From assembly GCA_015099395.1 (NCBI GenBank), contig AP024096.1, positions 372,001 to 436,000 on the forward strand: DNA of 64,000 nt, given 5' to 3'. This stretch comes from Ktedonobacteria bacterium brp13 (GTDB lineage Bacteria > Chloroflexota > Ktedonobacteria > Ktedonobacterales > Ktedonobacteraceae). The position numbers and the translations under genes are program-made. Below are positions 53,879 to 63,765 of this stretch, one piece after another. The notes beneath the pieces are model-generated. The model was not told where the DNA came from, made no database searches, and saw nothing but the letters and a program-made list of their open reading frames with translations. Position 1 is the stretch's first letter; every line of letters starts with the position of its first letter.

Positions 53879-53919
53879 GATCCGCGATAGCACGACAACC
53901 AGGCGTGCTATTGCGGATC
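53879..53919. terminator. Bidirectional terminator between convergent genes
   Basis: GATCCGCGATAGCAC and GTGCTATTGCGGATC pair over 15 bp with one wobble and an 11-nt loop. The right arm covers the last codons of the minus-strand ATPase gene. Confidence 0.75.
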
Positions 53920-55371
53920 ATTGTCCAATGACTCCTGTTCAAGACCCAGCAGTTCTTTGAGCAACATCTGCAGTGCATGCTCCTGCTCTCTATAGAACTG
54001 GCGTGTACTACCGAAACCCAGACGCGCCGAGGTCTGGGCATTTGGCAGGTGATACTTGAAGTAATGATAGTGGAGAATATTGTAAAGCCGCCACTCAGGC
54101 GCACTATCAGAACGCATACCACTGCCCTGCATGCACTCAAAGGCGGCCTTCAAGAAATCACGTACCAGTACGCCCTTGCGCGTATTGGGAGAGTTTCTCT
54201 TCAACACCGCCACGTAATGCATCTCCGCCAGCTTGCTCTTCTCCAGAGCATCGGTATCGCTAAAATGATCGAGCACCTCTTTAAGATCATGAATCGTCAG
54301 TGCGGAGACACTCACCAGCGCAATCTCGCGCATATGTTTACGGAATAACGCACTCTCGCTCAACTCCGGCAATTTGCGACGCCCCTCGGGCAGTTGAGCA
54401 ACCTCAAGCTTGAGATTCTGCTGTTGCTCCTCGCTCAGATCTTCCCAGGCCTGATCAAAATGCGGTTCCAGCTCTTCATAGATGGCCTCTTGCACCAACA
54501 GGTCGCTCGCCTGATCGCGCCCGCTCTCTTGCTTTGCTAATGCCAGGTGCGTCAGGTGCAACAACTTCTCATCGAAGATTTTACGGCAGGCCACCTGAAT
54601 ATAAAAAGGATGGCGACCGGCCAGCGTCAGGATATGCTCTACCTCACTGGAAGTGAAAGGCAGACCAGCGCGTTCCGCTGGCAATGTAATCAGTTCACGT
54701 GCCTCTTCCTGCGTCAGCGCGCTAAGCACACACGTCTGGAATATATTGAAGAATGGTGATGAAGCCACCTCGGTCGAATGGCAGACTTCGTAAAGCGGCT
54801 TCATTGAAGCCGTGACGTATGAGATAAGGTCGTAGATACCCGCGAGTGAGCGCATAAACGAGAAGAAGTCGGGATCAAAGTGTGGATTGCGCGTCACTTT
54901 ATCAAAGGCATCCATCAAGAGTACCGGTCGGAAGCCCGCTGCATTAATATCTTCCAGCAAGCGTTTAAACCGATCCTCGCCACTTAACTCCATAGACGGA
55001 GCCTGCAATACTAACTTTGGACGGCTCTGGAGAATGATCTGCTTACAGACCAGGTTGAAAAAGTCTTCACGAGTCTTCTTCGGATACTCGCGCCAATCGG
55101 TGCGAATAAAGATACGATCGGTCAACTCATGTCCTAGCAGTCGCTGAATCTCGGGTGAACCCAGAAACTTGAGCAACGAGGACTTCCCAATATGGCGCGA
55201 ACCAACCACAGAGAAACACTGCCGTTTCTCAACTGCATTGTAGAGCATACGCAGCTCATGCCGCCGTCCAATAAACATATCGGCATCACGTACTGCGTCA
55301 CAGTCGTAATAAGGATTGCCTGGTTGTAAATCCACGAAAGTGCCATCCTTTCTTGCATTATCGGTCATCAT
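53908..55371 (-). CDS. STAND-like ATPase
   Basis: 487 residues. The ATPase starts at a NPYYDC..DADMFIGRRHEL entry motif (about 18-40), then Walker A GSRHIGKSS (about 57-65), Walker B VLLMDAFDKV (about 150), and the helical C-terminal half of an AAA_16/archaeal ATPase type. The last 150 residues contain a winged-helix-like part and end with MLLKELLGLEQES. The entry motif NPY..F.GR is also found in the 1694-residue protein encoded divergently. No effector domain is seen. Start uncertain: two ATG codons at 55371 and 55368 follow a weak AGAG. Likely a signal-responsive ATPase in a shared pathway. Confidence 0.82.
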   Translation of the reverse strand: MMTDNARKDGTFVDLQPGNPYYDCDAVRDADMFIGRRHELRMLYNAVEKRQCFSVVGSRHIGKSSLLKFLGSPEIQRLLGHELTDRIFIRTDWREYPKKTREDFFNLVCKQIILQSRPKLVLQAPSMELSGEDRFKRLLEDINAAGFRPVLLMDAFDKVTRNPHFDPDFFSFMRSLAGIYDLISYVTASMKPLYEVCHSTEVASSPFFNIFQTCVLSALTQEEARELITLPAERAGLPFTSSEVEHILTLAGRHPFYIQVACRKIFDEKLLHLTHLALAKQESGRDQASDLLVQEAIYEELEPHFDQAWEDLSEEQQQNLKLEVAQLPEGRRKLPELSESALFRKHMREIALVSVSALTIHDLKEVLDHFSDTDALEKSKLAEMHYVAVLKRNSPNTRKGVLVRDFLKAAFECMQGSGMRSDSAPEWRLYNILHYHYFKYHLPNAQTSARLGFGSTRQFYREQEHALQMLLKELLGLEQESLDNDPQ

Positions 55372-55626
55372 GACTCTCTGAACCTTCACATGCCACCCAC
55401 CTCTTATCTCTAGTGACAATCATTAGAATAGTATTGTACAATAAAGTATGCATTCTCTAGAGTGACACGTACTGCCGCTATATTGACACGCACCAAAATT
55501 CTATGACACAACACCAGACACGGATCATAGGCTCAAATTTTCAATAGAAAACTGTACGTCGGACAACGAAACGTATCAGGCGCATAATCAAGCCTCTACA
55601 ACTATATATGACGCAGGAAAACTACA

Positions 55627-55841: not shown

Positions 55842-58800
55842 ATGATCACCAATCCACGACGTCAAAATATTCATTTTACGCATAAGCGTAATAAAAGAAA
55901 CCTGCACTCCGAACGGACAATCGTCATAAAACAGCCTGAACGCACAGTCATTCGTCAGTTACAGGATGCGCTCTGGGAGAGTTCTGCGATAACATCGATT
56001 CTCTGGAATTATCGTACGAAAGACTGGGTCACCAATGTCCATGCTGTCGACTTTGACAACGATGGTGATATAGAGGTATTGCTCAGTTCACGCGATGGCA
56101 TTGTACGTGTTCATACACCAATGGGAGCCAAAAAGTGGGAATGGAAGCAGGAGAACAAAGCGATCAGCGCGATGTTCGCGCTGCCAATCTCAATGCTCAC
56201 CGAATCCGCTACGGCTTATCAACGTCAAGCCTGTATTATCGTTGGCACGCGTGAGGGTGATCTTTACGCTATCGACCAGAATGGCAAAACGGTCAAAAAC
56301 TGGCACTACACAACTGGTCGTATGATCCGCCAGATCTATGCTACTCCCCAGCTCCCAAATTGCTTGCTTGTCGGCTCTGAGGACCGCTGTATTCACTTCG
56401 TGGACCGCCGCACAGGTAAGGAGCTCTACCCACCCCTCAAAACCGGCGGTTGGGTACGCAGTGTCTTTGCCTATGATATAGATGGCGATGGCGAATGCGA
56501 GATCCTCGTCGGCTCAGGCGATGACCATCTCTATATTCTCAATAGTCAGGGTCAACTACTCGATAAACTGTTTTTAGCGCACCAGATCTATGCTATGCTG
56601 ACTGCACCACTCATGGATGGCGGACCCGTCAGAGTCATCACCAGTTCAAATCGTAAAAATCTTTTTACCTGGACAATACATCGTGCTACAGATGGTCACT
56701 GGAGCGTCGAAAAAGTATGGGAGACGCAACCCGAACACACACTCTTCGGCAACCGTATTCACACGATCTTTGTCCATGACATCGATGGGGACCATCAGCA
56801 AGAGATATTACTGGGTGCGGAAGACGGCTACCTCTATATCCTCAATCTTCATGGTCAACTCCTCCTGAAACGTCGCTTCGGCAGTAGTGTCTATAGTATC
56901 TGGGCCATGGACATTAACAACGATGGTCAGCAAGAGATCCTCGTTGGCACTGAAGATAACGGCGTCTATGTTGTGCAATTTCAGATCAATGATGAAATCT
57001 ATAATCGAGTCAAAAACGTTTATAACGAGATTATTACAAATCAAGAGATAGATGATATTAAAGCGCTGAAAGAACTGACCCCTAGAGAGAAGGCTACGTT
57101 GAAAGAGTTTGTCGATGAAGCTTCACCGTTCCAACGCCAACAGATGGAGGTAGATAGGGCCACTCAACTCATGCAAGACGGCAACTATGAACAGGCCCTC
57201 AAGCTCTTCTTACGCGCACGCCGCCAGAACGTACAATACTGCTGGGAACAACCGGTGCTAACGCAGGGCTATATATGGTCGCTTGGTATTGGTAAGATTG
57301 CAAACCACAAGGACAACCATCTGATTGTGGGTACCGATGAAGGCTACATCTGCGCTATCGATGTTACTGGCGGCGAGCAACACGTACGTTGGTCAACAAA
57401 CGTACACGATCGTGTACGCATGCTTCAGATTGCTGAGTTCCATTCAGGCGAGATCGACTCCATCGCAGCCGTGCTAGCCAACCATCGCATGGTCATCCTC
57501 AATGCGCAGGGCGAGATTATTAAAGAACATACCTTCTCGCATGTCGAAGATTGGGCGCGCTGCCTTGAGATCGATATGCATAAAGAGGATTATCACCGCG
57601 CGCCGGAGATCCTGGTAGGTCTGGAAAATAAACAGATTGCTATCTGGGATGCCAATATCGAACACGAGCGCAAAACGATTACCACCCCCCAGGGCATCAA
57701 CATCCTTTGTACAGCAGAAGTAACGCAGAGTGGTCGCTCCGATGTGATTGCCGGCTCCATCAAAGATCTGGTCGTCGTCTATGATAACGAGGGCAACGAG
57801 CGCTGGCGCTTTCAGACGCAGGACCGCGTACTTGCCATCGACGTAGCCGACATCGACCTGGATGGGTACCCGGAAGTGGTAGTTGGCTCCGAGGATCGCA
57901 ACGTCTACGTTATTGACCACGAAGGTCACCTGAAGTGGCGCTATCGTACACCTCGCGCAGTAAACGATGTCACCGTCTGTAGCACTCGGCAGAGCGGAGA
58001 GAACGAGGGAGATTCACAACCAGAGATGCTCGACATATTGATTGGTTGCGCAGATGGCTACATCTACATCCTTTCGCCCAACGGTGATCTCCGCTGGAAA
58101 TATCAAAGTGCCAATCGTGTGAAAGCGCTACGCGCCAGAAAAATCATTGGCGATAAAAAAGTAGAGATCGCACTCGCCACCGAGAATAAACTTGAACTGC
58201 TCCAGATCATAGATCAAACAAAACTGTTTGCACAGATACAGGATTGCTGGAACAGTTGGCTCGATACCAGAGAAGATCGCCATGCCGCTCTCATGGAGTT
58301 AACTCACCATAGCGATGACTTTATTCGTTCATTTGCACTCGTAAAGGTGGCCGGACAGCAGACTCGCCATGAAGAAGATATTCGGCGCTTACTAGAAGCA
58401 TCACGCACCGACGACGCGCTGGAAGTCAAGCGAGAACTGGTCCGTGCAATCATTGTGCTTTATATCGTTACTACCAATAAAGAAGAGAACGCGCGCCAGG
58501 CACGTAACCTGCTCAACCAGTTTGCCGCCGATCCCGATCCTGAGATCCGCCTCGCAATCGTCAATATCCTGCCTAAACTTCTGGAGCTTGATGAGGGGAT
58601 CTGCTTCTCTTACCTTGAATACTTCACACACAATATCGATCTATGGGTACGACGTGCTGTCGTACGCCAGATCGATACACTTACAGAGAAATATGCCGCT
58701 CGCGCATTCAAGCTTCTTTTAAATACTGTCAACGACGAAGATGAATGGATACGACAAGAGACGGCGCGTGCCCTTGCACATTACTTTGATGCTCATCCGC

Positions 58801-60926
58801 AAAATACCATCCGTGATAGCATCGAGCTGATCTCAACCCGTATAAAAATTGCTATCCTGCAACAGATCTCCTACTCAGCACGCAAACCCGAGATCAGAGC
58901 CTGGTTTCAGAGCCTGGCGACTCTCATCAGTGATGTAGATAAGCCCGCAGTTATCACCCACCTCGATGAAATCATCGCAGCAATCTCTCAATTGCAACAG
59001 TTTGATCCAATCTATAGCGAAGACTACCGCCAGATCTACACAGAGTTTCGCCGCTTACAGCAGATACATTCAAGTGGCGCACTCGCCGTCTATCAATGGT
59101 ACAACGTAGCCGAGGAGACAACCGCCCAGAGCTATGCGATCATTCGTGTCTGCCTGCGCACCTTTGATAGATTGCAAGAGGTTGCAACAATCATGCAGGC
59201 CTTCGAGCGCCGTGAAGAGGTACGCGATCGCATGACAAGCCTGATTAACGCGACCGATACGATCGAGTCGATCCGTAACGATCTGCAACTGCAAGAGCTG
59301 GCACAAAAAGAGAGCTTCCCTCAGGGCTACCGCCTACCAGAACTCGCCATTCTGCAACGCCTGGTAGAGCAGGTCTATCAACTTATTAAAGCTGAGATCA
59401 ACCGCCTGCGTGGCAGCGCCGAGCTAGTAGCAGAGATACGTAATAAAGAGGTACACCAGGAAGAGCAGGTCATCATCTCTCTACAGGTCACTAATAAAGG
59501 CGTCAGCACGGCAGACAACGTTATAGTCGATCTCCTGGCAGCACCACAACAGTTTCGTATCATCGGCGAGCCACAACGCAGCCTGATCCAGGTTCCCAAT
59601 AAAAACTGGCGCAGTGTAGAGTTCACTATCCAGCCCCATATCAAGCAGCCGCGCCTGGAATTTCATATCACCTATGATGATGCAGAGAAACGTGGCAAGC
59701 AGACAGATTTTGCGGATGTGATCACGCTCTACAATGATCTGCGGCCTTACATCGAGATTCCCAATCCGTACACCAGCGGAACGCCTATTCGCGACACCAA
59801 AATGTTTTATGGGCGGCGCAACGACATTGAGACACTTACGACAAAGCTGAGTAGCGTGACCGCCAATAAAGTTGTTGTCCTTTCGGGACAACGTAGAATG
59901 GGCAAGACAAGCCTGATCTATCAATTGGCAAACAACCTGGAGAAAGGTAAACAACTTCCGGTCCTGATCGATCTCCAACGCCTGGCAGCAGTACAAAATA
60001 CAAGTCAGTTTTTTATGGGGCTGGCACAATATATCTGTGAGGAGGCGCTGCGCAGAAAACAGCTTATCCTCCCGGCACCACAGTCAGCAGCCTTCAACGA
60101 TAATCCCACGGCTAGCTTTGATGCCTTTCTAGCCGAAACCTTACGTGCACTGCATAATGAGAAGCTGGTCTTCATGCTCGATGAATTCGAGACCTTGCAG
60201 GAAAAGATCAACAATGGGCCACTCAATCTGGACGTGCTCCACTACCTGCGCAGCCAGATGCAACACCGTGAAGGGCTGAACTTCCTGCTTGTAGGCACAC
60301 CAAATATTCGCAATGTTACCGAGCCGTCCTGGTCGGTCTTCTTCAATATCGCGCTCCAGCACTCGCTCAATAAATTGAGGCCCAATGAGGCAGAGGCGCT
60401 GATCACCGAACCGGTCAAAGAGTATCTTGTCTATGATATGCTGGCTCTGGAGCGCATGCACCAACTCTCCGGTGACCTGCCATATTTCATCCACGTACTC
60501 AGCGAAATATTAATCAACTACAGCAATCTGCATCATAGAGCCTATATCACGGTCAATGATATCAATAAGGTTCTGGATACCGTACTGGAAGAGCAATCAA
60601 GTAGTATCCAGTGGATCTGGGACCAGCCAAAGTCTGCGCTTGAACGCTTCCTACTCGCGTTGCTGGCGCAGAACCAGAGTAGGCAAGGCGGCCAGATCTT
60701 TACGCTCAGTGATATCTATCGAGAATTCGATATGCAAGGTCTCCCGTATGAGCAAGACAAAGTAACTGCCGCATTCAAAAATCTCGTACGAGCCGATATT
60801 GTTGAGGAACAACAGAATGGAATGCACTACCGCATCCCCATCGGCCTCTTCAGAGAATGGCTACGTAAAGCCAAATCACCACAGCGCGTCATCCGAGAAG
60901 AGTTTACAGGCAGAGATTTCTTGTAA
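55842..60926 (+). CDS. FG-GAP propeller / HEAT / STAND ATPase giant protein
   Basis: 1694 residues, no signal peptide or TM. Order: first FG-GAP/PQQ-like propeller (about 65-376) with calcium-type loops DFDNDGD (70), DIDGDGE (212), DIDGDHQ (313), DINNDGQ (357); a helical TPR-like link (about 430-465); a second propeller (about 473-790) with DIDLDGY (670); HEAT-like repeats (about 800-1020, e.g. DPDPEIRLAIVNILPKL); helical region; a CARDB-like beta domain (about 1190-1290); then a STAND-like ATPase starting NPYTSGTP..KMFYGRR (1306), Walker A GQRRMGKTS (near 1348), Walker B LVFMLDEFE (near 1441), and a C-terminal winged helix. FG-GAP propellers are normally extracellular; here they would be cytosolic sensors. 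GGAGTGAGGGAAAG precedes the ATG. Divergent from the 487-residue ATPase. Confidence 0.85.
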   Translation: MITNPRRQNIHFTHKRNKRNLHSERTIVIKQPERTVIRQLQDALWESSAITSILWNYRTKDWVTNVHAVDFDNDGDIEVLLSSRDGIVRVHTPMGAKKWEWKQENKAISAMFALPISMLTESATAYQRQACIIVGTREGDLYAIDQNGKTVKNWHYTTGRMIRQIYATPQLPNCLLVGSEDRCIHFVDRRTGKELYPPLKTGGWVRSVFAYDIDGDGECEILVGSGDDHLYILNSQGQLLDKLFLAHQIYAMLTAPLMDGGPVRVITSSNRKNLFTWTIHRATDGHWSVEKVWETQPEHTLFGNRIHTIFVHDIDGDHQQEILLGAEDGYLYILNLHGQLLLKRRFGSSVYSIWAMDINNDGQQEILVGTEDNGVYVVQFQINDEIYNRVKNVYNEIITNQEIDDIKALKELTPREKATLKEFVDEASPFQRQQMEVDRATQLMQDGNYEQALKLFLRARRQNVQYCWEQPVLTQGYIWSLGIGKIANHKDNHLIVGTDEGYICAIDVTGGEQHVRWSTNVHDRVRMLQIAEFHSGEIDSIAAVLANHRMVILNAQGEIIKEHTFSHVEDWARCLEIDMHKEDYHRAPEILVGLENKQIAIWDANIEHERKTITTPQGINILCTAEVTQSGRSDVIAGSIKDLVVVYDNEGNERWRFQTQDRVLAIDVADIDLDGYPEVVVGSEDRNVYVIDHEGHLKWRYRTPRAVNDVTVCSTRQSGENEGDSQPEMLDILIGCADGYIYILSPNGDLRWKYQSANRVKALRARKIIGDKKVEIALATENKLELLQIIDQTKLFAQIQDCWNSWLDTREDRHAALMELTHHSDDFIRSFALVKVAGQQTRHEEDIRRLLEASRTDDALEVKRELVRAIIVLYIVTTNKEENARQARNLLNQFAADPDPEIRLAIVNILPKLLELDEGICFSYLEYFTHNIDLWVRRAVVRQIDTLTEKYAARAFKLLLNTVNDEDEWIRQETARALAHYFDAHPQNTIRDSIELISTRIKIAILQQISYSARKPEIRAWFQSLATLISDVDKPAVITHLDEIIAAISQLQQFDPIYSEDYRQIYTEFRRLQQIHSSGALAVYQWYNVAEETTAQSYAIIRVCLRTFDRLQEVATIMQAFERREEVRDRMTSLINATDTIESIRNDLQLQELAQKESFPQGYRLPELAILQRLVEQVYQLIKAEINRLRGSAELVAEIRNKEVHQEEQVIISLQVTNKGVSTADNVIVDLLAAPQQFRIIGEPQRSLIQVPNKNWRSVEFTIQPHIKQPRLEFHITYDDAEKRGKQTDFADVITLYNDLRPYIEIPNPYTSGTPIRDTKMFYGRRNDIETLTTKLSSVTANKVVVLSGQRRMGKTSLIYQLANNLEKGKQLPVLIDLQRLAAVQNTSQFFMGLAQYICEEALRRKQLILPAPQSAAFNDNPTASFDAFLAETLRALHNEKLVFMLDEFETLQEKINNGPLNLDVLHYLRSQMQHREGLNFLLVGTPNIRNVTEPSWSVFFNIALQHSLNKLRPNEAEALITEPVKEYLVYDMLALERMHQLSGDLPYFIHVLSEILINYSNLHHRAYITVNDINKVLDTVLEEQSSSIQWIWDQPKSALERFLLALLAQNQSRQGGQIFTLSDIYREFDMQGLPYEQDKVTAAFKNLVRADIVEEQQNGMHYRIPIGLFREWLRKAKSPQRVIREEFTGRDFL

Positions 60927-61037: not shown

Positions 61038-62162
61038 TTATGAGGCAGACAGGTAATATTTTTGTTCGAGGTAATCTAGTAGCATGTCAGAGGTCAACTT
61101 GATACGCAGCCGGCAAGCATTGGTCTCCGTCGAGTCAAAGGTGCCATTCTCGTAGAGCTTATTAGAGGGCGCGCCCCCACCACACAACAGGAAATACTCG
61201 CAGCTCTCACGACAACGTTCAATACCTTTTTGAATATCCGTGTTCATCTTTATAAACTTCTCATGCGTAAAAATCTGTTCTAAGGGGGTATCAAAGACAT
61301 TGCCTAATGTAAAACTCCCATAGGTAGGATGGGTTACGGAGAGCAGTTCGGGCGAGAATGTGGAGATATTCCCTTTGGTATCAAAGTTCAGAATAGCGGC
61401 CGCTGTATTGGTCTCCACTTGTGGTGCCAGGCGACCAGCCTTAATACGACGCAGTATGGTATCAATCTCGCGAATCGGCAACGGATTATCGCTCTGCTCA
61501 TTTAATACAAGCAGATGCTTGAGGAATTGCTGATAGCGCTGCATCCCTGCCGGCGTATGCAACGACGATTGTGTGTTACAACCCTCGACCTCTTCAGGAT
61601 TCAGGCCCAGGCGCGTAGGGCGCACCTCCATAAAAAAGTGCCAGAACTCATCGGGATAGAGGACAGTCTCGCCAGTCACCACCGAAATGACCGAGAAGGG
61701 AATATTGTTGGCCTTGAGCAATTGAATCCCACGCATCACGCGCTCAAACGTGCCATGATTGGCCCAATCCACACGCTGAGCATTATGCAAGAACTGCGGA
61801 CCATCAATACTTACACCAATACGGACATGCTGCTCCAGAATGAAATCACACCATTCCTGCGTGATCAACGTCGCATTGGTCTGAAAAGAATTGATGATAG
61901 CGATACCTGCGCTATTCCACTTTTGCTGGATAGCAAACGCACGACGATAAAAGGCAGTGGAAAGCACCAGCGGCTCACCCGCATGCCAGACACAGGTCAC
62001 TCGCCCATCAAGAAAAGAGGAAGACACAAAAAGAGCCTTAAATATCTGCTCTAGCGTAGCATCACTTATGCGGTTATTCAGATTGCGCTGTGGCAAATAA
62101 CAATAGCGACAATTGATATTGCACAAAGATGTAGGCTGAATCACTACGAGTCTGGTCTGCAC
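61038..62162 (-). CDS. Radical SAM/SPASM cyclophane maturase, GrrM/OscB-like
   Basis: 374 residues. The radical SAM motif CNINCRYCYLPQR gives the CxxxCxxC ligands of the 4Fe-4S cluster (Cys14, 18, 21). VTCVWHAGEPLVL, INSFQTNATLI and IGVSIDGPQFLHN are typical of SPASM peptide maturases, and the C-terminal Cys set ERCRESCEYFLLCGGGAPSNKLYENG plus a later ACRLR binds auxiliary clusters. The style is that of GrrM/OscB enzymes, which join an aromatic ring to the side chain two residues on (three-residue cyclophanes). Start is the GTG at 62162 because GAGGAGTGA lies eight bases before it; it gives MQTRLVVIQPTS, the usual N-terminus. A Trp/Asp-rich peptide gene lies 117 bp upstream. Confidence 0.87.
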   Translation of the reverse strand: MQTRLVVIQPTSLCNINCRYCYLPQRNLNNRISDATLEQIFKALFVSSSFLDGRVTCVWHAGEPLVLSTAFYRRAFAIQQKWNSAGIAIINSFQTNATLITQEWCDFILEQHVRIGVSIDGPQFLHNAQRVDWANHGTFERVMRGIQLLKANNIPFSVISVVTGETVLYPDEFWHFFMEVRPTRLGLNPEEVEGCNTQSSLHTPAGMQRYQQFLKHLLVLNEQSDNPLPIREIDTILRRIKAGRLAPQVETNTAAAILNFDTKGNISTFSPELLSVTHPTYGSFTLGNVFDTPLEQIFTHEKFIKMNTDIQKGIERCRESCEYFLLCGGGAPSNKLYENGTFDSTETNACRLRIKLTSDMLLDYLEQKYYLSAS

Positions 62163-62279
62163 GTAATAAGTCACTCCTCGTTATCGCTCAACGCACGCCA
62201 TAAAAGAAGTCACAGAACTCAGGAGTCAAAAGCTTACCGCTAGTCTCTTTATACTATTTCCTTGCTTAACACTCCCGCC

Positions 62280-62570
62280 TCATCGTTTGGGCAAATCATT
62301 CCAATCCTCCAACTTATTCCAATCCACCCAATCATCCGTCCAAAAATCTATCTCTTGATCCTGTGTGGTCCAAACATCTACCTGAGCAAATTTGTCTGTC
62401 ATAAGAGGAGCATGCTTTGAGGATACGCTTTCATAATCCTGACACAAAGGTACAAAACGTTCGCGATCAGCGGCAGCAATACCCGTTGTTAATTCAACAA
62501 ATACACGCGTACGAATCCTGGAGACGCGCTCCATCAGAGCAGTTTGGGGAAGATATGCGTCGGTATTCAT
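62280..62570 (-). CDS. Candidate triceptide RiPP precursor peptide
   Basis: 96 residues. The first 60 residues form a helical-looking leader (MNTDAYLPQTALMERVSRI..). The last 35 are a core of regular Trp motifs: W67-T-T, W77-T-D, W81-V-D, W84-N-K and W90-N-D. Cyclophane-forming radical SAM enzymes cross-link Trp, Tyr or Phe to the residue two positions later, often Asp, Asn, Lys or Arg, so each WxD/WxN/WxK is a possible site. AAGGAG lies eleven bases before the ATG. It is directly upstream of a radical SAM maturase gene in the same orientation. No protease, transporter or second peptide is adjacent. Confidence 0.72.
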   Translation of the reverse strand: MNTDAYLPQTALMERVSRIRTRVFVELTTGIAAADRERFVPLCQDYESVSSKHAPLMTDKFAQVDVWTTQDQEIDFWTDDWVDWNKLEDWNDLPKR

Positions 62571-63243: not shown

Positions 63244-63765
63244 TCAATAAAAAAGACCTTGTGAACAGTTGGTGAGTAATAAGAAGAGAATGATGCGTTG
63301 GCTGGCTGCATCATAGACCATCTTCCCCTGAAGCGCCGGAGGCGATGACGCAGGGTGAAGTCGCTTCCAGCCATGACCATTCCAGGCCCACGTCTCGTTT
63401 GTCTGTGGTCCCTCTATGGCTTCGATCGAGCCACCAAACAGGAGAACCACGTGATGGAGAGGATCATAGGCCATGGTGCTATCTCTGCGTGGAGGTGCCA
63501 CTTGAGAAATAGGAGTAGCAAAGGTGGTTATGGATGTAGGCAAATGAGTGTTGTGGATAGTTGTGGATTTAGATGAATATGTTCTCTGAGAGGATTGATT
63601 CCCAGCATGAAGTTGTAGAAGGGCAACCCAAATGAGTACGGCGATTAGCCCGATGAAAAGGGCAAGGCCCGTTATGAAAAGGATCTGAACTCTCCCGCGA
63701 TTGGATTGATTGCTCTTGGATGAGCGTGCATGCGGAGAATGTGAGGAAAATGGCATTTTTTTCAT
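63244..63765 (-). CDS. Truncated membrane-anchored kelch protein
   Basis: 173 residues: basic N-terminus, one TM (ILFITGLALFIGLIAVLIWVAL, about 28-50), Ser/Thr-rich stalk, then kelch repeats: APPRRDSTMAYDPLHHVVLLFGGS, NETWAWNGHGWKRLHPASSPP and MVYDAASQRIILF. Kelch propellers need five to seven blades; here the second blade breaks off in ILF and the frame adds an unrelated LLLTNCSQGLFY tail. So a frameshift or deletion has removed the rest. The start is ATG 63765, after GGAG. Confidence 0.68.
   Translation of the reverse strand: MKKMPFSSHSPHARSSKSNQSNRGRVQILFITGLALFIGLIAVLIWVALLQLHAGNQSSQRTYSSKSTTIHNTHLPTSITTFATPISQVAPPRRDSTMAYDPLHHVVLLFGGSIEAIEGPQTNETWAWNGHGWKRLHPASSPPALQGKMVYDAASQRIILFLLLTNCSQGLFY

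Follow-up and report, generated by a model that had tools for sequence, protein, structure and literature searches.

In the window analysed here, a 64,000-nucleotide stretch of the genome of Ktedonobacteria bacterium brp13, a radical SAM/SPASM maturase has as its predicted substrate the peptide encoded upstream of it, in which it would cross-link the Trp/Asp-rich tail, and the product is likely used by a STAND ATPase whose gene is convergent with that of the maturase; we consider this reading as a whole to be probable. A triceptide-type precursor with a GrrM/OscB maturase is the reading best supported by sequence comparison, while cross-linking, leader removal and an immune role are steps that we infer. 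Because the pair directly neighbours genes for immune-receptor-like ATPases, its likely role is in bacterial defence or signalling.

The precursor gene and its maturase

The precursor gene (62280..62570, reverse strand) is an open reading frame of 96 amino acids with a ribosome-binding site recognised by eye; it has the homologues P0001 and P0002, and it matches its own-family profile by construction. The peptide was originally predicted to carry five Trp motifs in its tail, and these are present in the last 32 residues as W67-T-T, W77-T-D, W81-V-D, W84-N-K and W90-N-D. Asp, Asn or Lys had been expected two residues after Trp in four motifs; four of the five do have Asp or Lys at this position, Asn occupies it in none, and W67-T-T is a misfit to the W-x-[D/N/K] pattern. 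The predicted core, residues 65-96 (62283..62378, reverse strand), was assigned from the sequence, from the residue statistics at Trp+2 and from comparison with P0001 and P0002, in which the core is variable and the leader constant. The leader motif LMERVSRIRTRV (62502..62537, reverse strand) recurs in other precursors of the alignment and in the tails of maturases fused to a precursor. It is predicted to be helical because the corresponding segment forms a helix in the AlphaFold models for two such fused proteins, P0110 and P0065.

Four W-x-[D/N/K] motifs within 31 residues were found in the window peptide alone among 6467 ORFs of at least 40 amino acids in 864 kb, comprising the window and 40 control stretches from its own genome (G000; 8.88 Mb, one contig) and from genome G008; two further ORFs had three such motifs. 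A chance ORF is ruled out by this rarity and by the homologues, in which the leader is constant and the core varies. Searches of NCBIfam and Pfam up to an E value of 1 returned no family match for the peptide, and its core is Trp/Asp-rich, with neither the Gly-rich repeats nor the precursor family model of GrrA; a classical Gly-rich GrrA precursor was therefore rejected. As in triceptide systems, the precursor lies beside a maturase and has aromatic-X-X motifs in a C-terminal core.

The maturase gene (61038..62162, reverse strand) encodes 374 amino acids from a GTG start and matches Radical_SAM (PF04055). It scored 428 bits against the GrrM/OscB model TIGR04261, for which the curated cut-off is 310, and this confirms the family named in the original prediction. 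The runner-up model, AmcB, gave 297 bits against the 425 required. The longest frame (61038-62174, reverse strand) would give 378 amino acids; by eye, the GTG at 62162 is the better start, with GAGGAG just upstream, and it leaves a gap of 117 bp to the peptide gene, the spacing first reported. The CX3CX2C motif for the AdoMet-binding 4Fe-4S cluster (CNINCRYC; 62100..62123, reverse strand) and the SPASM cysteines are intact, and only one of 77 near-invariant family columns is altered (P73S, not a Cys). An FxsB-type system was ruled out because the maturase scored 93.9 bits against the FxsB cut-off of 370. Viperin was also rejected, as the PADLOC pVip match of the maturase was weak (E value 2e-11), reflected general radical-SAM similarity and lay far below the GrrM score. 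NCBI annotation already applies the name GrrM/OscB to the maturases of Dictyobacter arantiisoli and Dictyobacter kobayashii. The adjacent region had been described as lacking a protease or exporter and, as far as tested, it does: the three small ORFs upstream of the pair had no Pfam match at an E value of 0.001, and neither a protease nor an exporter was recognised among them.

Peptide-maturase pairs and the Trp+2 signature

A search for homologous peptide-maturase pairs in other genomes, proposed with the original prediction as a check, recovered such pairs and did not refute it. Eight GrrM-family genes occur in 6 of 47 genomes of the class, seven above the TIGR04261 cut-off and one degenerate, and all eight have a leader-plus-core peptide beside or fused to them. 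The precursor is standalone at seven loci (the window, L044, L045, L046, L047, L048 and L049) and fused at L050. A precursor profile of nine rows, seven of them from the eight class loci, retrieved from the 47 genomes these eight loci and nothing further at an E value of about 1e-4 or better; the peptide of L047 (genome G004), which lies outside the profile rows, was still matched at 1.1e-4, and one weak match (0.004) was obtained in genome G040.

Two metagenome homologues are almost identical to the window peptide over residues 1-65 (P0001 at 64/65 positions, P0002 at 61/65). The core of P0001 reads W-K-D, F-A-D, F-D-D and W-D-N, with Phe in place of Trp in two motifs, and that of P0002 reads W-K-D, W-D-D, W-N-D, W-N-D and W-E-N. 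This is the pattern expected of a RiPP precursor: an unchanging leader, and a core that varies but keeps to an aromatic-x-[D/N/K] frame. A maturase 99% identical to that of the window, P0003, is encoded on a contig that matches that of P0001 in length (3138 bases) and is probably the same one.

Outside the class, L053 (genome G077, Chloroflexota) has a GrrM gene above the cut-off with an upstream ORF of 73 amino acids that lacks Trp, and no STAND neighbour. In a Rhodobacter MAG (L025:5556-7173), a peptide that ends FWDWHDKSGDDDWTKVSWEKVG precedes a GrrM/OscB-family maturase (328.6 bits); Pseudomonadota thus have W-x-[D/K] cores too. The precursor of L047 (L047:9800-11100) is an ORF of 276 amino acids that ends WTDWHKAR; its middle consists of about 150 residues of Arg/Asp/Asn/Ser/Glu repeats on DNA repeats of 15 and 36 bp.

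The spacing of residues relative to Trp was analysed in 30 cores, 9 from standalone precursors and 21 from fused tails, each taken as the final 45 residues. Of the 108 Trp residues counted, 80 had Asp (49), Lys (23) or Asn (8) at +2. Shuffling within cores gave a mean of 43.5 (sd 4.5), and none of 5000 shuffles reached 80. The same residues were not enriched at Trp+1, +3 or +4 in these 30 cores. Standalone precursors were chosen by eye beside each maturase, which biases them toward Trp motifs, while fused tails were chosen by length alone; the signature was seen in the fused tails (57/77), in the standalone cores (23/31) and in 16 representatives (45/58), with 0 of 4000 shuffles reaching the observed count in each case; these group counts used a second tail definition, which was too strict for counting fusions and was applied to the statistics alone. 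Because Trp recurs at +3 from Trp in 34 of 108 cases, the triads are often in tandem. The core of L049 has WLT and WEQ alone, with no Asp, Asn or Lys at +2, and the string WTDDW is present in the cores of the window and L050 and in none of the others among the 30.

In the published account (PMC11002830), OscB is reported to join C7 of Trp to the C-beta of Asn or Asp, and C4 of Phe to the C-beta of Asn, at positions i and i+2. The acidic W-x-D core had been singled out as unusual; it does differ from Gly-rich repeats, but it is not new chemistry, since coupling of Trp to Asp by OscB is already published in this account. Coupling in W-x-K would be an extension beyond the OscB chemistry reported. 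The family score, the pairs in other genomes, the constant leader with its variable core and the i to i+2 signature together bear out the triceptide-type pattern first proposed.

Radical SAM/SPASM maturases are chemically diverse and membership of a subfamily is no proof of a reaction, and the enzyme might instead make another modification, such as epimerisation or a bond of other spacing. We consider this unlikely, as the maturase exceeds the GrrM/OscB cut-off, the enrichment is confined to Trp+2 and Phe replaces Trp in P0001 (FAD, FDD); furthermore, the OscB products described in the source cited above (PMC11002830) are Trp-Asn and Trp-Asp at i, i+2.

For a cyclophane-forming maturase, the following course can be proposed. 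The conserved leader LMERVSRIRTRV would form a helix that docks on the maturase, as suggested by fused relatives in which the leader belongs to the enzyme chain and is modelled with high confidence. A 5'-deoxyadenosyl radical would then take a C-beta hydrogen of the Asp or Lys at i+2, and the C-beta would be coupled to the indole of the Trp at i. By analogy with the OscB chemistry in print, this could yield up to four three-residue cyclophanes with a loss of 2 Da each, Lys being an extension of that chemistry. The core may be released by a protease encoded elsewhere or may be active uncleaved, and the gene linkage suggests that the rigid acidic product could act inside the cell as a ligand, guardee or effector of an NLR-like ATPase.

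Maturases fused to their precursors

The fused maturase-precursors and the NLR linkage are the parts of real interest. Relatives of the maturase were taken as the best 120 of 4956 and the best 120 of 4439 matches (E value 1e-60), which is not a census; 188 of at least 150 amino acids were kept, and 161 of these could be scored for a tail. In 20 of the 161, a C-terminal tail of at least 60 amino acids appends leader and core to the maturase, such that the core and its modifying enzyme form one polypeptide as in borosins; the window's own pair is split. All 20 tails have at least one W-x-[D/N/K] motif and typically open with an xERVxRLxE-type leader, from which P0065 and P0133-P0135 diverge. The CX3CX2C motif is retained in 16 of the 20 and absent in P0127, P0136, P0145 and P0182, three of which are clearly shorter records. 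The GrrM/OscB model gave 434 to 438 bits for P0110, P0118 and P0065.

In a tree of 63 rows, 16 fused rows formed one clade (support 99/91), and P0065 grouped with the unfused P0068 (100/99). Parsimony on this tree needs two changes and suggests that fusion arose twice independently. A single origin was rejected by an AU test of the one-clade constraint (p 7e-6), the data set of which includes long branches such as L050. The AlphaFold2 model of P0110 (mean pLDDT 91.5, pTM 0.90) has a leader helix at residues 384-398 (pLDDT about 86-93) and a disordered core (pLDDT below 50); P0065 has the equivalent helix at residues 385-397 (pLDDT about 77-88). The solved structures nearest to the P0110 model are anSME and ChlB, a cyclophane synthase with bound leader.

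The existence of fused forms shows that the enzyme and its substrate are a matched pair. By analogy with borosins, the fused proteins probably modify themselves, either in cis or between protomers. If so, they would be a radical-SAM counterpart of borosins and a one-gene route to cyclophane peptides, and they would offer a tractable view of how a triceptide synthase holds its substrate. Among the papers listed in our literature search, which covered subscription papers and preprints only in small part, none reported a natural fusion of a radical-SAM maturase with its precursor and none reported GrrM in Ktedonobacteria.

The window's own genome holds a degenerate fused copy, L050 (G000:C1:4114378-4115691; L050:6379-7692), which encodes a fused maturase of 437 amino acids that scores 263 bits against TIGR04261, under the cut-off. 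Twenty of 76 near-invariant columns are altered in L050, including one Cys of CX3CX2C and one SPASM Cys, compared with 0 to 2 altered in the seven other members, and its branch in the tree is 0.67 long against 0.09 for the neighbouring P0110. The frame is open nonetheless, and the tail retains the leader and the core WTDDWNDWSDWPK. Next to L050 lie an integrase-like gene and one for a TIR-NB-ARC-TPR protein. L050 itself may be in decay, or its product may be a dead enzyme retained for its substrate tail; in the latter case the window maturase would be, speculatively, a candidate modifier of that tail.

Acidic Trp-rich tails can serve as binding motifs, and a tail retained in L050 despite the loss of the catalytic site would also fit a protein-protein interaction motif that the adjacent enzyme leaves unmodified. 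This reading appears very improbable to us, since the peptide occurs only with a maturase (all eight profile matches in the 47 genomes at an E value of about 1e-4 or better) and since, among the GrrM homologues searched, two independent fusions join it to GrrM alone.

STAND/NLR-like neighbours

The STAND neighbour, like the fused forms, is an addition to the original prediction. The gene convergent with the maturase (55842..60926, forward strand) encodes a beta-propeller/HEAT/STAND ATPase of 1694 amino acids, assigned from Pfam, and ends 111 bp from it in an arrangement that is conserved at related loci. Divergent from the beta-propeller STAND gene is a gene for an nSTAND2/nSTAND1 ATPase of 503 amino acids (53908..55419, reverse strand; Pfam), and L046 and L047 have homologues in the corresponding position (63-64% identity). 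In the same window, an ORF of 173 amino acids at 63244-63765 (reverse strand) appears by eye to be a Kelch-type fragment and has no Pfam match.

At six of the eight Ktedonobacteria loci the maturase gene is directly convergent with a STAND gene, with gaps of 111 bp in the window, 68 in L046, 37 in L047 (measured by hand), 33 in L048, -4 in L049 and -14 in L050. At the remaining two, L044 and L045, a TerC gene lies between the maturase and a beta-propeller STAND gene. The neighbours are of the beta-propeller/HEAT/STAND type at the window and its relatives and of the TIR-NB-ARC-TPR type at L048, L049 and L050, and a NACHT-HEAT gene also lies upstream at L046 and L047. The controls were 40 stretches of 20 kb, in which STAND-like genes made up 5 of 703 ORFs and 1 of the 274 ORFs that belong to convergent pairs. 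The count took in homologues of six chosen STAND queries, all drawn from the loci under study, and would miss other STAND families at the loci and in the controls alike. TIR matches number 17 in G000 and 27 in G008, and NB-ARC matches 22 and 49, respectively.

The pair could instead produce an ordinary secreted triceptide, an antibiotic or a signal, for which the proximity of STAND genes has no functional meaning. None of the six listed GrrM loci outside Ktedonobacteria has a STAND neighbour, and the linkage is one-way, in that 10 of the 15 beta-propeller STAND matches in the class are without GrrM, several of them then with TerC alone. At L108, L110 and L112, where GrrM is absent, a TerC-like gene comes after the beta-propeller STAND gene; STAND-TerC may thus be the original unit, to which GrrM was added later. 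The integrase-like gene adjoining L050 points to a mobility that could bring neighbours together, and because the eight loci fall in two maturase clades, the linkage may represent two ancestral events and not eight. Set against these points are the directly convergent STAND gene at six of eight loci, compared with 1 of 274 in the controls, and the persistence of the linkage despite divergence of the STAND proteins (33-56% identity for the beta-propeller type between Dictyobacter loci and across genera; 38-41% for the TIR type). Moreover, an exporter was not recognised among the nearby proteins scanned. We regard a secreted product as possible, although doubtful, and prefer intracellular use of the cyclophane product by the convergent ATPase.

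A more far-reaching version of the preferred reading is offered only tentatively. The products would be self-stapling NLR ligands: a GrrM-type enzyme, fused to its substrate in some lineages, would make a rigid chain of Trp-Asp/Lys cyclophanes that is guarded by, or activates, the adjacent STAND/TIR ATPase, and in the window's genome one working maturase would serve both the neighbouring peptide and the L050 tail. Should the STAND linkage prove functional, the known link between FxSxx peptides and TIR-ATPases would gain a second maturase family and reach a second phylum, and the role of triceptides would become directly testable. Even without a STAND function, enzymology gains from the pair a new family of leaders and numerous W-x-D and W-x-K cores.

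Among known systems, the multiple-cyclophane synthase ChlB with bound leader (PDB 9gm3, 9gmc) is one of the closest solved peptide maturases to the fused model (TMq 0.69-0.71). The window maturase matches its sequence at an E value of 1e-12, but identity in the structural alignment is about 20%, and ChlB, as described in PMC12636437, is part of a fusion with an rSAM hydroxylase and is not fused to its substrate. Borosins of the OphMA type, like the fused relatives, carry the RiPP core at the C-terminus of their own enzyme and occur in fused and split forms; the enzyme there is a methyltransferase that performs backbone N-methylation (PMC8429565), whereas here it is a radical SAM/SPASM protein predicted to form C-C cyclophanes.

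The FxSxx peptide/FxsB rSAM systems have been linked to TIR-AP-ATPase-TPR proteins (Kaur et al. 2020, PMC7159879). They share with our loci a small variable precursor modified by an rSAM/SPASM enzyme, and their linkage to AP-ATPase, TIR and TPR domains has its exact counterpart in the TIR-NB-ARC-TPR neighbours of L048, L049 and L050; the loci described here thus resemble them in pairing, but with a different maturase family. Here, however, the rSAM subfamily and the core motif are different, metallopeptidase and vWA-MoxR genes were not noticed beside the pair, the maturase and STAND genes are convergent and not an operon, and the partner in the window is a beta-propeller STAND protein. The closest comparison is with the OscA/OscB (GrrA/GrrM) triceptides, with which the pair shares the curated maturase subfamily, a peptide encoded upstream and the Trp-x-Asn/Asp motif that OscB is reported to couple (PMC11002830). 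The window leader is unrelated to theirs by any family match, and the core is of the acidic W-x-D/K type in contrast to the WRN-GGW repeats in Methylocapsa and Methylocella; Lys at +2 in 23 of 108 cases, the fused forms and the STAND linkage are features of the systems described here.
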